From positions 1-34,364 of the forward strand of contig JAFGFE010000033.1 of the NCBI GenBank assembly GCA_016931225.1: a DNA stretch of 34,364 nucleotides. Reading direction: 5' to 3'. Of this stretch, positions 11,642 to 20,988 are shown piece after piece (position 1 is the first letter of the stretch; every line of letters begins with the position of its first letter). The stretch is from Candidatus Zymogenaceae bacterium (lineage in GTDB: Bacteria; Desulfobacterota; Zymogenia; Zymogenales; Zymogenaceae). A program made the translations under genes and the position numbers. The notes under the pieces were generated by a model. That model saw nothing but the letters and a program-made list of their open reading frames with translations. It was not told where the DNA came from and did no database searches.

Positions 11642-11764
11642 GGGCATCCAGGATAGCCAGGTTGATCCGCGGCACATAGAGCGGCTCCCTACCGCTGCTT
11701 CCTTCCGGACCTGACGGGGTTTAGGAACATCTATTGCGCGGGACCCAGCTATCCTGGATGCCCC
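11642..11764 (-). ncRNA. ffs: Signal recognition particle RNA, bacterial small (4.5S) type
   Basis: Minus-strand RNA of about 123 nt with the conserved apical core GTCAGGTCCGGAAGGAAGCAG, including the GGAAG tetraloop neighbourhood and the AGCA asymmetric loop. The ends pair over at least 14 bp (GGGCATCCAGGATAGC with GCTATCCTGGATGCCC). It binds Ffh for co-translational membrane targeting. Confidence 0.96.
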
Positions 11765-13701: not shown

Positions 13702-15918
13702 TTACTTCATCAGCGTCTCCACCATCCGGTTCGTCTGCGCCAACCGTGTGGATAGCAGAGTGATGATAAATCGATGCAGGGCCGCGGCCAGATCCGGACT
13801 TTTCCGCTCCATGCGACCGAGCGATTCCCGCGTCAGTCGATACAGGACGCTTGTTTCATTCGCCGTCACCGACGCCGACCGATAGGCATCGCCCGAAAGC
13901 CCCAGATACATCCCCATCTCCCCCACCACGTTGCCGGACTTGACCGTCCTCAGGCGCACCGATCGTCCCTCCTCAGTCTCCAACGTCACCGTCAGGCTCC
14001 CGGACTCGATGAAATAGAGCTCATCGGCGACGGCGCCTTGAGTGATGACCATATCGTTCGCTCGGCACGTCACCCGCTCAAGATAGCCCAGAAACACGCC
14101 GATATCCATTTCATCGATATCCAGGCGGGAGAGGAATACATCGATATCGGAGACTTCCGTACCGTCATCGCCAAGGCACATGGCGATGATTTCGTTCTCG
14201 CACCACTCAAGGGCATAGTCGAACTCCGAAAATACCCTGACGACATCCCCCGTTTCATCCACGACACCGCCGATGGCCAGCTGATCCCGCATCCAGTCCG
14301 TGAGGTTGGTGAAAACGAGCATGAAGCCGCTCTTCTCTGCGAGCTGTTTCATCTTCATGATACTGTTGACGGCCGACGCGTCAAACCCGCTGACATGGCG
14401 AAAATCGAGGATGACAAACCTCGGCGTCTCTTGTGATTGATCGTCGACCCGCGCGCTTACCTGATTCAAGAGCGAATCGGCGGTTCCGAAAAATATAAAG
14501 CCCTGGAGCTTTAGTATAAAGAGCATCCATACATTCTCATCGAGGCATCGCTGGTGAATCGTGGAGCGATCCACCGGGCTGCGGCACGAATCGCCGTCGA
14601 GCTTGTGCTTGGCGACCTCCACCTTGCTGTAATTGACCACAAACAGAAGCGCCGCCACAACCAAACCCGCGAACACACCCTTGAGAAATCCAAAATGCGC
14701 GATCGCCACCAGGATCAGAATGACAAGGAGGTAGTCGGTCTTCGAAAGGCGAAACCACGCGTCATACACCCATTCGGTGAGAAACAAAAGCCCCAGGTAC
14801 ATCAGGAGGCCGCCGAGTATCGGCAGGGGAAAATATGAGAGCACCGACGCCCCAAACAGCATCATCACGACGCACATCAGGGCCGCCGTTATTCCCAGGA
14901 TGCGGGTCGGCGGTCCCAGGCGGCTGCCCAGGGTGGAGAGGCTCAGCGTCTGATATCCGACCACACCCCCGCCGAGGCCCGCAACCACATTGGCGAGACC
15001 CGCGGCGGTCAGCTCCCGGTTCAGGTCGACGTCCTTTTTCAGGATCAGCTCGAGCCCCGTTGTATTGAAGAGGAGGGATATCACACTGACCAAAAGAACC
15101 GCCACGATGCTCCCCGCCTGAGAAAGCACCACCTGCCAGTGTACATCCCTGAAGAACGAGGCCGTCGGAAGCTTCCACAGTCCCTCTCCGGGCATTGATC
15201 CCAACAGGAGTCTCAGGGACCTCGCCTCCTCTATGGACGTGCCGGTCAGCGCCAGGGCCGCATAAAAGACCGCAACGCCTCCCACGATCAGTCCCGGAAC
15301 CAGGAGCGAGTGATCGATTCTGCGAAGGGAAATGAGAACCACAAAGGCGAAAATCGTCCCCGGCAGCCACATCAGGAGGATATCGGGTCGAAACAGCCCC
15401 GGTACGATCGCAAAGGTCAGGGATTCACCCAGCATCACCCCCATGGCGCCGCTGGCCAAAAGCCATCCGGTCCCCGCCAGAAAGCCGCCCACCACCGGAA
15501 ACGGGATATACCTGACGAGACGCCCCAGCCTGAATCGACCCATCGCCATGAAGGCGACGCCCGATACCAGCGATGTCATGATAATCACCGCGACGAGCGT
15601 ATGAAACGCCGATTCCGGATCGTGAGGGATCGCGGCCACAACAGCGACACCCACGACGGAAAATATGGCGGCGGGGACGTCCTGGGATATGGCGATTATT
15701 CCGGGTCGGGAGGATATCAATGCGATGACGAGGCACACGGCGCACGTCCCGAACAGCACATATCCGATTCCCTGAGCTAGATATGGGGAAAGGTCTCCGG
15801 AAAATATCAGGGCGGCGAATGATATCTCGAGAAATACGAGTGTGAAGCCGATGATGATCCCGCCGACGATGCCGGTCAGGATTCGCTGGAATGTCAACGC
15901 ATTGCTGGAATGTATCAT
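13702..15918 (-). CDS. SulP-family anion transporter fused to STAS and cNMP-binding domains
   Basis: A 738-residue inner-membrane transporter of the SulP/SLC26 family (sulfate, bicarbonate or other anions). A transmembrane core with many hydrophobic helices occupies about residues 1-420. A STAS domain (about 445-560, FVILDFRHVSGFDASAVNSI) follows, then a cyclic-nucleotide-binding/CAP-like beta-roll (about 600-715, with LYFIESGSLTV and GNVVGEMGMYLG). The ATG at 15918 is preferred; a TTG at 15966 could add 16 residues, and neither has a strong SD. The fused sensor domain suggests control by a ligand such as cAMP, but the canonical binding residues would need an alignment. Convergent with the TPR lipoprotein gene. 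Confidence 0.88.
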   Translation of the reverse strand: MIHSSNALTFQRILTGIVGGIIIGFTLVFLEISFAALIFSGDLSPYLAQGIGYVLFGTCAVCLVIALISSRPGIIAISQDVPAAIFSVVGVAVVAAIPHDPESAFHTLVAVIIMTSLVSGVAFMAMGRFRLGRLVRYIPFPVVGGFLAGTGWLLASGAMGVMLGESLTFAIVPGLFRPDILLMWLPGTIFAFVVLISLRRIDHSLLVPGLIVGGVAVFYAALALTGTSIEEARSLRLLLGSMPGEGLWKLPTASFFRDVHWQVVLSQAGSIVAVLLVSVISLLFNTTGLELILKKDVDLNRELTAAGLANVVAGLGGGVVGYQTLSLSTLGSRLGPPTRILGITAALMCVVMMLFGASVLSYFPLPILGGLLMYLGLLFLTEWVYDAWFRLSKTDYLLVILILVAIAHFGFLKGVFAGLVVAALLFVVNYSKVEVAKHKLDGDSCRSPVDRSTIHQRCLDENVWMLFILKLQGFIFFGTADSLLNQVSARVDDQSQETPRFVILDFRHVSGFDASAVNSIMKMKQLAEKSGFMLVFTNLTDWMRDQLAIGGVVDETGDVVRVFSEFDYALEWCENEIIAMCLGDDGTEVSDIDVFLSRLDIDEMDIGVFLGYLERVTCRANDMVITQGAVADELYFIESGSLTVTLETEEGRSVRLRTVKSGNVVGEMGMYLGLSGDAYRSASVTANETSVLYRLTRESLGRMERKSPDLAAALHRFIITLLSTRLAQTNRMVETLMK

Positions 15919-16443
15919 GATATGAGTCCAAATGAAGGATTTATTAAAACCGCATCGAATCCGCAATGATGAGTATGATGCTTTTTTATATCACGGCGGC
16001 ACGCAGGAATGAAGATTTTTCTGCGATGTCGCCGCTCTTTTCACCCCACAAACGGAGATATCCGCGGAATGTAGTTGCTGCACGTGTGATTCCCTGTATG
16101 AGAAAACTATCCACAAAAGAGAAGATACGAAGAAGGCACCATGAATTGTCTTGATACATACCGTCGGTTTTCCCGTATGAGAAAAAGCCCAAAGCATACA
16201 CTCCGGGCAATGAATTTTTTATAAGAACATATTTCGAGAAGTGACGGCATCAAGAAAGATCGGACACCGCTTTCGGATCATCACACCCTAACACTATGGG
16301 ATGGAGACGACGCTCCCGTCCGTGCCGAAGAACCTATTTGCAATACGCTCTTCAAATCGGGCATATCACGCAAAGGACGGGGTATCACGAAAAAGGCCGA
16401 ATTGATGGTCAATGCCGCACGCCGAAATCAAGGTGAAAACCAA
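15919..16443. other. Intergenic region, no gene recognised
   Basis: About 520 bp with only short, unconvincing frames on both strands. The part next to 15918 should hold the transporter promoter, but I see no clear -35/-10 pair. Confidence 0.4.
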
Positions 16444-17323: not shown

Positions 17324-18499
17324 TTACGGAGCGTAGTACCACACGCCGCCGTCTCCGGTGACGCCGTAGAGGGAGTTCCGTCCCGCCTCGATCATCGTTC
17401 CCGGTCCGCCGATCTGGGTCCAGTTCTCCGGAGTGCCGTCATAGCGAAATACCCCGGTGGGGGAGAGGCCGTAGAGGGCCCCGAATCCGTCAACGGCGAA
17501 ATCACTGCCGGATGAGCCCACCCGGGTCCAGTCCATGGGGCTTCCGTTGTAGCGGTAGATATCCCCGGTGCTCGGTTGTATACCGTACAGGGAGCTCCCG
17601 CCGGCATAGAGGTCCGTCGCCGGGCCGCCGATGCGGGTCCAGTCGTTGGGCGTGCCGTTGTATCGGTAGACTCCGCTGCCGTCGGGCGAGATGCCGTAGA
17701 GCACCCCGTTGCCGTCAACGACGAAGGTCCGTCCGGGGCCGCCCACTCGGGTCCAGTCGTACACTCTCCCGTTGTACTGGTAGATGTCTCCGGTATCCGG
17801 GTTGGTGGCGAACATCCGGTCGCCCCCGGCGTAGAGCTCCGCCGCCGGGCCGCCGATCTGGGTCCACTCATTGGGATGGCCGCTGAACCACCACACGCCG
17901 CTGCCGTCCGGCGAGAGTCCGTAGATCACCCCGTTGTCATCCACGGCGAAGGTCCGGCCGGGGGTGCCTATCCGGGTCCAGCTGTTTGGAGTGCCGTCGT
18001 AGCGATAGATGTCCCCCGAGGACGCGTGGACGCCGAACAATTCGTTTCCGCCGGCGTAAATCTCACGGGCGGAATTCCCGATGGCGTCCCACTCCCAGGA
18101 GGGGGCCGGCTCAGGGGCGCCGCCGCCTCCACCACCGCCTCCTCCGCCGCCGCCACCGCCGCCCGATCCCTCTCGGGTGAAGACCACACCGTTATTCCAG
18201 GCGATCTCGGTGGCGTAGCCCGAGGAGTTCATGGTAATGGTCCCCTCGGCATAGCCGAAGGGCCACACGGCGCTGATGGAGGTATCGTCGATATCCCCCA
18301 CCCCCGTCTGGCCGGTATCCGGCATGTTCCAGGTAAATACATTTCCGAGCTGCATGATGTTGTACACATGACCGTTGCTGCCGATCCAGCGGCCGGAGAC
18401 ATTCGGAGCCGCAAGGGCGCCTGCAGCCACACACGCCATCAACGCCGTACACAGCGTCATCAGGCCTATCCGCACCATTTTTCTTTTTTTCGTTTTCAT
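17324..18499 (-). CDS. Secreted seven-bladed propeller protein with poly-Gly linker
   Basis: A 391-residue exported protein. A Sec signal peptide is cleaved after ALA (about 30). Residues 33-110 are a beta-rich module (VSGRWIGSNGHVYNI...AVWPFGYAEG...GVVFTRE) that recurs in the neighbour at 18691. Fifteen consecutive Gly (113-127) link it to seven repeats of 36-39 residues (133-391), each opening W(T/D)xIG and closing with a YRY/WYY strand. These look like tectonin-type beta-propeller blades. Blades alternate between an AGG...GDIYRY type and a VDxxG...LSPDGSGV type, so a two-blade unit was probably duplicated. GGGAG precedes the ATG. Substrate unknown; carbohydrate or surface binding is possible. 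Confidence 0.75.
   Translation of the reverse strand: MKTKKRKMVRIGLMTLCTALMACVAAGALAAPNVSGRWIGSNGHVYNIMQLGNVFTWNMPDTGQTGVGDIDDTSISAVWPFGYAEGTITMNSSGYATEIAWNNGVVFTREGSGGGGGGGGGGGGGGGAPEPAPSWEWDAIGNSAREIYAGGNELFGVHASSGDIYRYDGTPNSWTRIGTPGRTFAVDDNGVIYGLSPDGSGVWWFSGHPNEWTQIGGPAAELYAGGDRMFATNPDTGDIYQYNGRVYDWTRVGGPGRTFVVDGNGVLYGISPDGSGVYRYNGTPNDWTRIGGPATDLYAGGSSLYGIQPSTGDIYRYNGSPMDWTRVGSSGSDFAVDGFGALYGLSPTGVFRYDGTPENWTQIGGPGTMIEAGRNSLYGVTGDGGVWYYAP
18119..18163 (-). repeat. GGN trinucleotide tract encoding 15 Gly
   Basis: Uninterrupted glycine codons of mixed third base on the minus strand, forming the interdomain linker of the propeller protein. A likely site of in-frame length variation. Confidence 0.85.
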
Positions 18500-18631
18500 T
18501 GCATGACTCCCGATATAAAACCTTCTTTTACGTATCTGTAGTATCGCATGGTTTATTTATACCAACAATCGCCGTTTTGTTCTGTGAGTGCGCTCACACG
18601 CATTGTTTTTTTGGATAGTGTTTTTCTCGAG

Positions 18632-18660
18632 AAAAAAAGGCCCCGGATCGCCCCGGGGCC
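18632..18660 (-). terminator. Rho-independent terminator of the 18691-19617 gene
   Basis: Minus strand GGCCCCGG (18660-18653), 6-nt loop, CCGGGGCC (18646-18639), then U7 (18638-18632), 30 nt after the stop codon. Confidence 0.88.
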
Positions 18661-18690
18661 CAAAAGTCCTTTTCATTCCATTGTATCGCC

Positions 18691-19617
18691 TTACGGCCGC
18701 TCCCACACATCTCCGCTGTTCCACTGGATACGAAGCGCCCTTCCCTCCGGGGTTACATCGGTGATGGTTCCCACGTCGTTCAGGTTCATGCTGGGGGGCT
18801 TGGCGCCCCAGTGCACGTTTATCTTATCGCCGTCGTAGACGTCTGCGTTCCCGGTATCGGTACCGATAATGAAAATTCCCCCCGGATTGGTCCATTTTAC
18901 CGTGTGCGTGATACCATTCTGGGTGAGGGAATAGTCATACCCCTGGGCGTGGTTGACCCAGTTTCCGCCGACATCCACCGGAGCGATGTCAAGAAAGTTG
19001 TTTGGCTGGTTGGACTGGATGCGCCTTCCCTGATACTCGATCTCCAGTACTCCGCCGGTAGCCCCGGGCGGGATCTCGCAAATCACGTACGATGCACCCT
19101 TGGTGTTGATAATGGGAAGATTCATGTTATTCAAAAAGACCTGAATCTGTCCCCCCACATTCTGGGTGAGGTCGATCCACAGCTCGCCCCCCACCCTGGC
19201 CGGATTCGGACCGAAGCTGAAGTTGAGATCCCCGCCGCCGCCACCGCCTGGCGCCGGGGTCCCTGGAGGCGTACCCGGTGTGCCGCCCCTGGTAAAAAGC
19301 ACTCCGTTGGACCAGACGATCTCGATCGCCCATCCCGAGGGATCCGTGACGATGTTCCCGGTGGCCGCCCCGAAGGGCCACACGGCATTGGCACTGTTCC
19401 CGCTGATTTTCCCCACGCCGATCTCTCCCGTCGCCGGGACGACCCACTCGAAACCGTCGCCGATTTGGACGATATCGTATTCGTTTCCGATGTTGCTGAA
19501 CCAGTGACCGGAGATGTCCGCGGCGAACGCCGCCGGGGCCAGGGCGCACACGATCACAACGCCGAGGACCAACATTCCTCCCCTTACCGCCATCCGAAGC
19601 ATATACGTATTTTTCAT
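18691..19617 (-). CDS. Secreted protein with two copies of the shared beta module
   Basis: A 308-residue exported protein. The signal peptide is cleaved at about AFA|AD (32-33). Residues 34-112 form the same module as in the 17324 protein (ISGHWFSNIGNEYDIVQIG...AVWPFGAATG...GVLFTRGG). A Pro/Gly linker with six Gly follows. The middle beta domain (about 134-215, FGPNPARVGGELWIDL...GGVLEIEYQG) looks like an extracellular Ig-like/IPT fold. A diverged second module copy (about 217-308, GGNWVNHAQGYDYSLTQNG...RIQWNSGDVW) closes the protein. GGGAGG precedes the ATG. Separate from the propeller gene by a terminator, yet clearly paralogous. Function unknown. Confidence 0.7.
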   Translation of the reverse strand: MKNTYMLRMAVRGGMLVLGVVIVCALAPAAFAADISGHWFSNIGNEYDIVQIGDGFEWVVPATGEIGVGKISGNSANAVWPFGAATGNIVTDPSGWAIEIVWSNGVLFTRGGTPGTPPGTPAPGGGGGGDLNFSFGPNPARVGGELWIDLTQNVGGQIQVFLNNMNLPIINTKGASYVICEIPPGATGGVLEIEYQGRRIQSNQPNNFLDIAPVDVGGNWVNHAQGYDYSLTQNGITHTVKWTNPGGIFIIGTDTGNADVYDGDKINVHWGAKPPSMNLNDVGTITDVTPEGRALRIQWNSGDVWERP

Positions 19618-19935
19618 AGCATCCTCCCGTGTATGATTCCGACAAAAATAATAATAATTTTTATTCTATTGTCCGATATCGCTGTCGGTGTGGCTGTGAG
19701 GAATCTCACGCTTTTCTTTTTTGAATGAGAGCTGAAAAAAAGACATCTCGTCCCCGATCAGGACGAAAAAGAGGAGTTGGAAACAGATATATATTATATA
19801 TATCATCTAAATCCTCCGGGGTCTCCTGTTTCGGGATGGAAATAAAAAACGGGTGACCCGAAGGACGCGGCGATCGTTTTAAAACGGCCGCCGCTGATTT
19901 CATATGCCGTAGGAAGAATGAAAAATCGAGAAGAT
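19618..19935. other. Gap between selD and the secreted protein gene
   Basis: No gene. It holds the terminator-like hairpin listed separately and, nearer selD, a nested inverted repeat around GTTTTAAAAC with GCGGC/GCCGC arms (about 19868-19898), plus a short CGGG-TCA-CCCG stem followed by U6 on the minus strand (about 19840-19862). Confidence 0.45.
19735..19766 (-). terminator. Terminator-like hairpin downstream of selD
   Basis: Minus strand TCGTCC (19766-19761), 7-nt loop, GGACGA (19753-19748), then GATGTC and a run of seven U. It would end readthrough from the selenium operon. Confidence 0.55.
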
Positions 19936-20988
19936 TCAGCGGTTTTTCACAACCTCGATGCCGGAGCCGGAAACAACCTCCCCCACCTCCCACATATCGA
20001 CCCCCCGCCCCCGGGCGAGGGCGAGTATCTTCTCGGTTTGTCCCGAAGGAACCGCCGCCAGAAGCCCCCCGGACGTCTCCGGCGTGTAAAGGAGCTGCCG
20101 TTTCTCATCGGGGATGTCGTCGTCGAAGGTAATCCGGTCCTGAAAGGTGCGCTCGTTGTTGCAGGTGCCTCCGGGGAAGAGCCACATGTCCGCATATTCC
20201 TCCGCCCCGGGGAGGAAGGGGATCGTATCTGCGAAGAATCGCAGCCGAACGCCGCTGTTTTCGGCCATCTCCATGCCGTGGCCCAACAGGGCGTACCCGG
20301 TCACATCGGTCAGGCCGTTGATGTCCCCCTCCCGAAAGACGTCCGCCGCGTCCTTATTCAGCGTAAGCATGGCGTCTATGGCGGCCTTCACGTGGGAAGG
20401 ATGAGCCTCCCCGGCCTTCAATACCGTGGTGATGATGCCCACACCTAACGGCTTGGTGAGAAACAACACGTCACCGGGCCTAGCGCCGGCGTTGGTGAGC
20501 ACGCGGTTCGGGTGGATGGTACCCATCACCACCAGTCCGTATTTCGGCTCGTCGTCGTCCACCGTGTGTCCCCCGGCGATGACCCCCCCCGCCCGGATCA
20601 CCGTGTCGGCCCCGCCGCGGAGTATTTCCGCCGTGACCTCCACGGGAAGCGACGGGGGAAATCCGCAGATATTGAGGGCCAGCCTCACGTCCCCGCCCAT
20701 GGCGTATACGTCAGACAACGCATTGGCGGCGGCGATGGCGCCGTACTGGTAGGGATCATCCACCACCGGGGTGAAGAAGTCGAGGGTCAGGATGATCGCA
20801 AGGTCCTCGGATATTCTCCAGACCGCGGCGTCGTCCAGCGCGTCCATCCCCACCAAGAGATCAGGGAAGGACTCTTTGGGAAAACTGTCTTTGATATGAC
20901 GCATGACCTGCGCCAGGGCGTCGGGAGCCGCCTTTGCGGCTCAACCGGCGGCCTTGGCCAGTCTCGTCAGACGAATCTCTTCCGTCAT
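19936..20988 (-). CDS. selD: Selenide, water dikinase SelD, selenocysteine-containing
   Basis: Makes selenophosphate from selenide and ATP, the donor for selenocysteine and selenouridine. It is 350 residues when read from the ATG at 20988 (AAGGA upstream) through an in-frame TGA at 20943-20941. The N-terminus reads M-T-E-E-I-R-L-T-R-L-A-K-A-A-G-U16-A-A-K, matching the SelD active-site loop where Sec or Cys stands at this position with the essential Lys (K19) three residues on. Downstream the typical VGMDALDDAAVW, GAIAAANALSDVYAMGG, AGGHTVDDDEPKYG and PGGTCNNE motifs are intact. Starting instead at the ATG at 20904 would remove the catalytic loop. Last gene of the selenium operon. Confidence 0.95.
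20925..20942 (-). promoter_or_regulatory. Candidate bacterial SECIS hairpin in selD
   Basis: Perfect 7-bp stem GAGCCGC (20942-20936) / GCGGCTC (20931-20925) with loop AAAG, starting at the second base of the UGA codon. Bacterial SECIS elements lie directly 3' of the UGA within the coding sequence and bind SelB. Confidence 0.6.

Follow-up and report, generated by a model that had tools for sequence, protein, structure and literature searches.

Three copies of a small domain (in the following termed the module) are encoded by two neighbouring genes on the minus strand of the DNA analysed here, a stretch of 34,364 nucleotides from Candidatus Zymogenaceae bacterium (the window). The module represents a real, previously undescribed family, with a fold of a known kind: structural models predict an avidin/calycin-type minimal eight-stranded barrel. 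Tentatively, its role may well be that of a small barrel, either accessory or binding a ligand, carried by exported proteins which probably bind glycans. Neither Pfam nor NCBIfam has a name for this conserved module, and a model built from the present copies could annotate exported "hypothetical" proteins.

Module copies in the two genes

On the minus strand, gene 2 (18691..19617; 308 aa) lies upstream and gene 1 (17324..18499; 391 aa) downstream, both confirmed as open reading frames. The product of gene 1 comprises (i) a signal-peptide-like start (residues 1-31, 18407..18499), (ii) module copy 1 (residues 33-109, 18173..18403), (iii) a glycine linker and (iv) a Tectonin propeller (residues 134-391, 17327..18100). 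That of gene 2 comprises (i) a signal-peptide-like start (residues 1-33, 19519..19617), (ii) module copy 2 (residues 34-110, 19288..19518), (iii) a Pro/Gly linker, (iv) an IPT/TIG-like domain (residues 127-212, 18982..19239) and (v) a diverged module copy 3 (residues 215-308, 18694..18975). The module spans 77 residues and in both proteins directly follows the signal-peptide-like start, as had been claimed by the sequence-only reading. These starts, recognised by eye and forming an N-terminal helix in each structural model, suggest that both products are exported.

Copies 1 and 2, delineated by alignment, profiles and eight strands in the models, are 51 % identical and align with a score of 222, compared to a mean of 31 (sd 6) for shuffled sequences. 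Copy 3 shares 36 and 29 % identity with the two N-terminal copies and scores 73 against copy 1 and 67 against copy 2 (shuffles again with mean 31 and sd 6). For none of the three pairs was the score reached in 2000 shuffles, so the proposed presence of three copies, including a diverged one ending the second protein, holds above chance. In case of two further pairs of N- and C-terminal modules, taken from relatives, 1 of 2000 shuffles reached the score. A profile devoid of any C-terminal copy retrieved the orthologue of copy 3 in a second genus (E 1.7e-4), whereas the window's own copy 3 stayed short of E 1e-3 in this search. With the wider profile A4, which includes copy 3, the latter was matched at E 4.7e-21.

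Searches of family libraries

Fifteen module copies were scanned against Pfam (best E 0.042) and NCBIfam (best E 0.027); the matches were scattered over families that each hit a single copy, and neither library named any of the copies. The avidin family (PF01382) appeared for one of the 15 copies (E 0.12) and none reached its curated cut-off; PF11512 (Atu4866) matched none at E values up to 1, and PHROGs yielded nothing better than 0.17. Across 198 genomes of the phylum, PF01382 itself was found once, and not in the genome studied here. Sequence matches in the PDB to UVR8 and HERC1 were rejected as module relatives: they cover residues 13-42 only, resemble the W..G.LG.G units of propellers and vanish with profile A4. 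Literature searches revealed no mention of "Zymogenus", and among the papers listed for secreted calycin domains of unknown function none dealt with this module, as judged from titles and the opening of the abstracts. The earlier designation as a type not yet described thus stands for the family, which is unnamed in the scanned libraries, but not for the fold.

Predicted fold

AlphaFold2 models, based on 4 aligned sequences for gene 1 and 8 for gene 2, predict the N-terminal module of either protein as eight strands forming a barrel, with pLDDT values by ten-residue block of 74-83 (gene 1) and 82-91 (gene 2). Strands in the gene 1 model are 4-9 residues long. Outside its N-terminal module the gene 2 model is poor; copy 3 is still modelled as eight short strands, with low confidence. 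Structure prediction, which had been proposed as a check, speaks against a new fold.

A second-look aligner was used with residues 32-111 of the gene 2 model. Among the matches listed were zebavidin (4bj8) and avidin (7p4z; Z 9.3, 2.7 Å, 79 residues), a domain of quinohemoprotein amine dehydrogenase (Z 9.3, 2.0 Å, 75 residues), a designed barrel (Z 9.2, 2.1 Å, 77 residues), Atu4866 (2jmb; Z 7.7, 2.9 Å, 70 residues, 19 % identity) and the C-terminal barrel of the Ulm16 cyclase (Z 7.4). Since the designed barrel scores as high, the match to avidins may reflect a common arrangement of strands. A Foldseek search with the entire gene 2 model was led astray by linkers and poorly predicted regions (rmsd 17-19 Å in the top rows), and the first match in BFVD, an algal-virus protein (E 1.2e-9), had an rmsd of 22.6 Å.

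According to PMC2954199, the calycin signature consists of a first-strand Trp together with a Lys or Arg in the last strand. These residues occur in all 15 module copies (W6 in 15/15; R77 in 14/15 and Lys in 1/15). Another calycin trait is a 3-10 helix capping the barrel, a helix type that the strand assignments of the two models do not list separately. Read in alternation along the predicted strands, the residues Y14-I16-Q18, F23-W25, G34-G36, A45-W47, I67-W69 and V73-F75-R77 would in each case lie on a single face of their strand, and this conserved face is consistent with a packed or narrowly open core.

Partner domains

The partners proposed from sequence were a propeller and an Ig-like domain. 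The propeller is borne out by PF19193 (Tectonin; 50 bits, cut-off 30), and the Ig-like domain appears IPT/TIG-like by fold, its match to PF01833 falling below cut-off. The propeller of gene 1 contains seven W-repeats spaced by 36-38 residues. Its phmmer and Foldseek matches include tectonin 2 (5fsb; E 9.2e-10 and 6.6e-13, respectively), with designed "Cake" propellers scoring better than tectonin 2 in phmmer (best E 8.5e-21). The second-look aligner placed UVR8 first (Z 21.2), PLL4 (20.3) and PLL2 (20.1) being listed as well, and RCC1-like propellers are also close (Z about 20). Several entries among the tectonin 2/PLL lectin matches listed hold sugars. The repeats alternate between two types (A-B-A-B-A-B-A), a pattern such as amplification of a two-blade unit would leave.

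The middle domain of gene 2 obtained 14.5 bits with PF01833 (IPT/TIG; cut-off 20.9), and residues 127-212, a low-confidence part of the model, matched IPT domains with Z up to 8.3. The IPT/TIG-like assignment accordingly denotes a resemblance of fold. Judged from these partners, the earlier suggestion of a binding module appears plausible.

Distribution and architectures

Homologues exist beyond the gene pair, namely in other Zymogenaceae (a family placed in the Deltaproteobacteria by NCBI) and in Methanotrichales. Neither outcome that the sequence-only reading had set as a refutation, a clear hit to a named family or confinement to this pair, was therefore obtained. A profile search of the module's own genome (3.73 Mb, 46 contigs) revealed no further close copy; the wide profile added a single, very weak hit (E 0.005) in a small protein with a lipoprotein-like start. 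The module was matched in 2 of 98 relatives and, in a survey of the phylum, in 3 of 394 genomes (own genome aside in both cases). Two of these three are close, Candidatus Zymogenaceae Zod_maxbin.0311 (G001) and Candidatus Zymogenus CSMAG_2390 (G003), both from the same family as the own genome. The congeneric relative of G003 (G002, 99 % complete) gave no module match, so that presence is patchy.

In G001 the same two genes form a cassette with unchanged order, gene 2 being 64 % and gene 1 58 % identical to its counterpart in the window. This cassette, from another genus, is flanked by genes for a YchF-type GTPase and a GNAT-type protein (named by eye), whereas the neighbours in the window are selD and a sulphate permease; the cassette is hence kept amid different neighbours. 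In addition, G001 encodes a second propeller fusion and a beta/gamma-crystallin-type protein whose C-terminus is formed by a module copy. Together, the two other Zymogenaceae genomes contain the cassette, two more propeller fusions and one beta/gamma-crystallin fusion.

Four architectures were found: the module combined with (i) a Tectonin propeller (gene 1, L004, L005, L006), (ii) a TIG-like domain and second module copy (gene 2, L008), (iii) a beta/gamma-crystallin domain (L009), and (iv) an archaeal protein devoid of Pfam matches (L014, L031). None of the copies found here is a barrel without a partner domain. This variety, extending over bacteria and archaea, supports the proposed mobility of the module.

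A short peptide pattern, searched in a collection of genomes from 84,980 species, retrieved 18 stretches, 5 of which encode relatives: four lie in G001 and G003, the fifth in Methanosaeta sp. PtaU1.Bin112 (Methanotrichales). The strictness of the pattern makes this count a lower bound. Among 50 Methanotrichales genomes, 16 (PtaU1.Bin112 included) matched at E ≤0.01, with close matches in two only (E 5.5e-27 and 7.6e-23). A draw of 246 genomes from the archaeal phylum yielded no match at E 1e-6 other than PtaU1.Bin112 itself.

No phage, plasmid or viral contig with a close module copy emerged from the searches made: the crystallin-linked copy, the sole one tried, had no match in phage and plasmid collections, and protein search with the module retrieved no viral contig. 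The pattern I-x-W-x-N-G-x-x-W-T-R occurred in 20 viral stretches, none of which contained the rest of the module before the motif (by eye).

A tree was built from 11 close copies. Groups were formed by the gene 2 copies from the N-terminus (99/99), by those from its C-terminus (100/100) and by the archaeal pair (92/93), indicating that the cassette's three copy types had already diverged before the two genera split. The tree is unrooted with unsettled deeper forks, and no direction of transfer between archaea and bacteria can be read from it.

The weaker Methanotrichales matches that were readable belong to a longer cousin domain of roughly the form LTGxWxxxDGGxYYIRQxGxxxWWYG...GSVWTR. It was also encountered on two cyanobacterial plasmids (54 and 46 % identity) and in a single further genome from the bacterial phylum. 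Four loci of this YYIRQ...WWYG...GSVWTR type were noted, one of them beside a PAN domain; where scanned, cousins from methanogens and cyanobacterial plasmids had no match in Pfam, and NCBIfam has no name for the cousins either.

Upstream sites and gene neighbourhood

Palindromes of the CRP type (TGTGA-N6-TCACA) precede both genes, one agreeing in 10/10 letters 83 nt before the ATG of gene 1 (18583..18598) and one in 9/10 letters 77 nt before that of gene 2 (19695..19710). Two sites with up to one mismatch are not rare in the window as a whole (15 of 100 shuffles), but a stretch of 250 nt rarely contains a site of 9/10 letters or better by chance (0.2-1.2 % of mononucleotide shuffles). The own genome contains 6 exact CRP-type sites compared to 1 for the reversed control pattern. 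An exact palindrome is also located 64 nt before the first gene of the G001 cassette. Across eight upstream regions, 9-10 letters agreed in four, including that of the gene 1 homologue L012 (199 nt upstream; the other gene 1 homologues are L010 and L011), 7 in one and 6 in three. The latter three belong to L011, the archaeal L014 and the downstream gene of the G001 cassette; L011 and L014 lack a CRP-type site. In the own genome, two proteins pass the Pfam cut-off for a CRP-type helix-turn-helix, and one of them contains the stretch SRETVSR, which corresponds to the DNA-reading helix of CRP. A CRP-type regulator may hence control gene 1 and gene 2. The genes of the G001 cassette are separated by about 31 bases, whereas a terminator-like hairpin (10 pairs and a T run; consensus match only) lies between the genes of the window (18638..18661, minus strand). 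Two of the other five exact palindromes in the own genome are located close before open reading frames with signal-peptide-like starts (by eye).

The neighbouring selD-like gene (AIRS domains; 19936-20988, minus strand) contains an in-frame TGA near its start within the motif AAGUAAKA and probably encodes a selenoprotein itself. Due to the in-frame TGA, the ORF caller cuts this gene short. The transporter at 13702-15966 (minus strand) is of the sulphate-permease type, with a STAS and a C-terminal cyclic-nucleotide-binding domain. The window also contains a bacterial small SRP RNA (11652-11750, minus strand) and, elsewhere, three tRNA genes.

Possible role of the module

In the preferred reading, both genes would be under control of a CRP-type regulator and yield glycan- or surface-binding proteins, in which flexible Gly/Pro linkers connect the exported barrel, a small mobile extracellular domain of the avidin/calycin type, with further domains that serve recognition: in gene 1 the seven-repeat Tectonin-type lectin propeller, and in gene 2 the IPT/TIG-like domain together with another barrel. 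The propeller may hold a sugar, and the barrel could act as a second recognition or docking domain keeping the protein on the cell surface or matrix. A packed or narrow core makes binding in the barrel's interior doubtful, and a structural or multimerising role is therefore a serious rival, albeit one we regard as somewhat unlikely. Here the barrel would be a cap without ligand that pairs with other barrels and thereby renders the lectin propeller or TIG protein multivalent. Conservation of Trp, Tyr, Phe and Gly on a single face of short strands points to such a packed core, gene 2 contains two barrels, and the quinohemoprotein amine dehydrogenase domain matches as well as the avidins do. However, conservation on a par with the core is also seen for the polar Gln18 and, in the majority of copies, for Asn71 and Arg77, which packing alone need not require.

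That the barrel carries a small hydrophobic ligand inside, in the manner of lipocalins or fatty-acid-binding proteins, would agree with the calycin signature residues and with the Ulm16 match. We consider it highly unlikely, since 77 residues, strands of 4-9 residues and aromatics on one face probably leave little cavity, and scanning of six neighbouring proteins revealed no ligand-handling family apart from the sulphate permease. The chance that the module is a true biotin-binding avidin appears minute, despite the fold match (Z 9.3) and the appearance of PF01382 for a single copy. According to PMC1831776, the biotin contacts of avidins include Asn12 and Ser16; at the aligned places, Asn is found in 2 of 15 copies (replaced in 13) and Ser in none, the comparison being restricted to these two contacts as the remaining ones fall outside the aligned columns. 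Moreover, no copy passes the Pfam cut-off. A broader and quite unlikely proposal is that mini avidin-like barrels represent a general docking module, passed between Zymogenaceae and methanogenic archaea, which helps cells of anaerobic communities to adhere to one another or to a common matrix.

If the barrel of the preferred reading binds a ligand, it would constitute a very small avidin-type binding scaffold already used naturally as a fusion part. In this poorly known lineage of bacteria, the gene pair, possibly CRP-controlled, offers a concrete case in which to test for attachment to surfaces.

Comparison with known systems

Avidin is a homotetramer, its barrels pairing into tetramers. The module resembles avidins in its predicted eight-stranded barrel and in GxW plus Gly at the same spacing within the first 17 columns, the only ones aligned by profile comparison with three avidins. 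The profile match is marginal: A4 scored 16.7 compared to a maximum of 16.0 in 200 column shuffles, and profile A3 scored 13.9, inside its shuffles (mean 11.3, maximum 23.5). The module differs in its length (77 residues versus about 112-118 in the avidins compared), in not keeping the biotin contacts Asn12 and Ser16, in remaining below the Pfam cut-off and in being fused to other domains. As judged from the models and profiles, we describe its fold as avidin-like but place the module outside the avidin family. Lipocalins are much larger than the 77-residue module. Likeness to the calycin superfamily consists in the presence of the signature Trp and Arg/Lys as residues at the expected strands.

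Atu4866 (PF11512, 2jmb) shares the size (79 residues) and the barrel (Z 7.7), but PF11512 is matched by no module copy; among the literature matches listed, the name occurred in one study on legume symbiosis, and no function for Atu4866 was found. The propeller of gene 1 is similar by sequence and structure to tectonin 2 and the PLL lectins of Photorhabdus, from which it differs by its seven repeats of two alternating types and by the added barrel.
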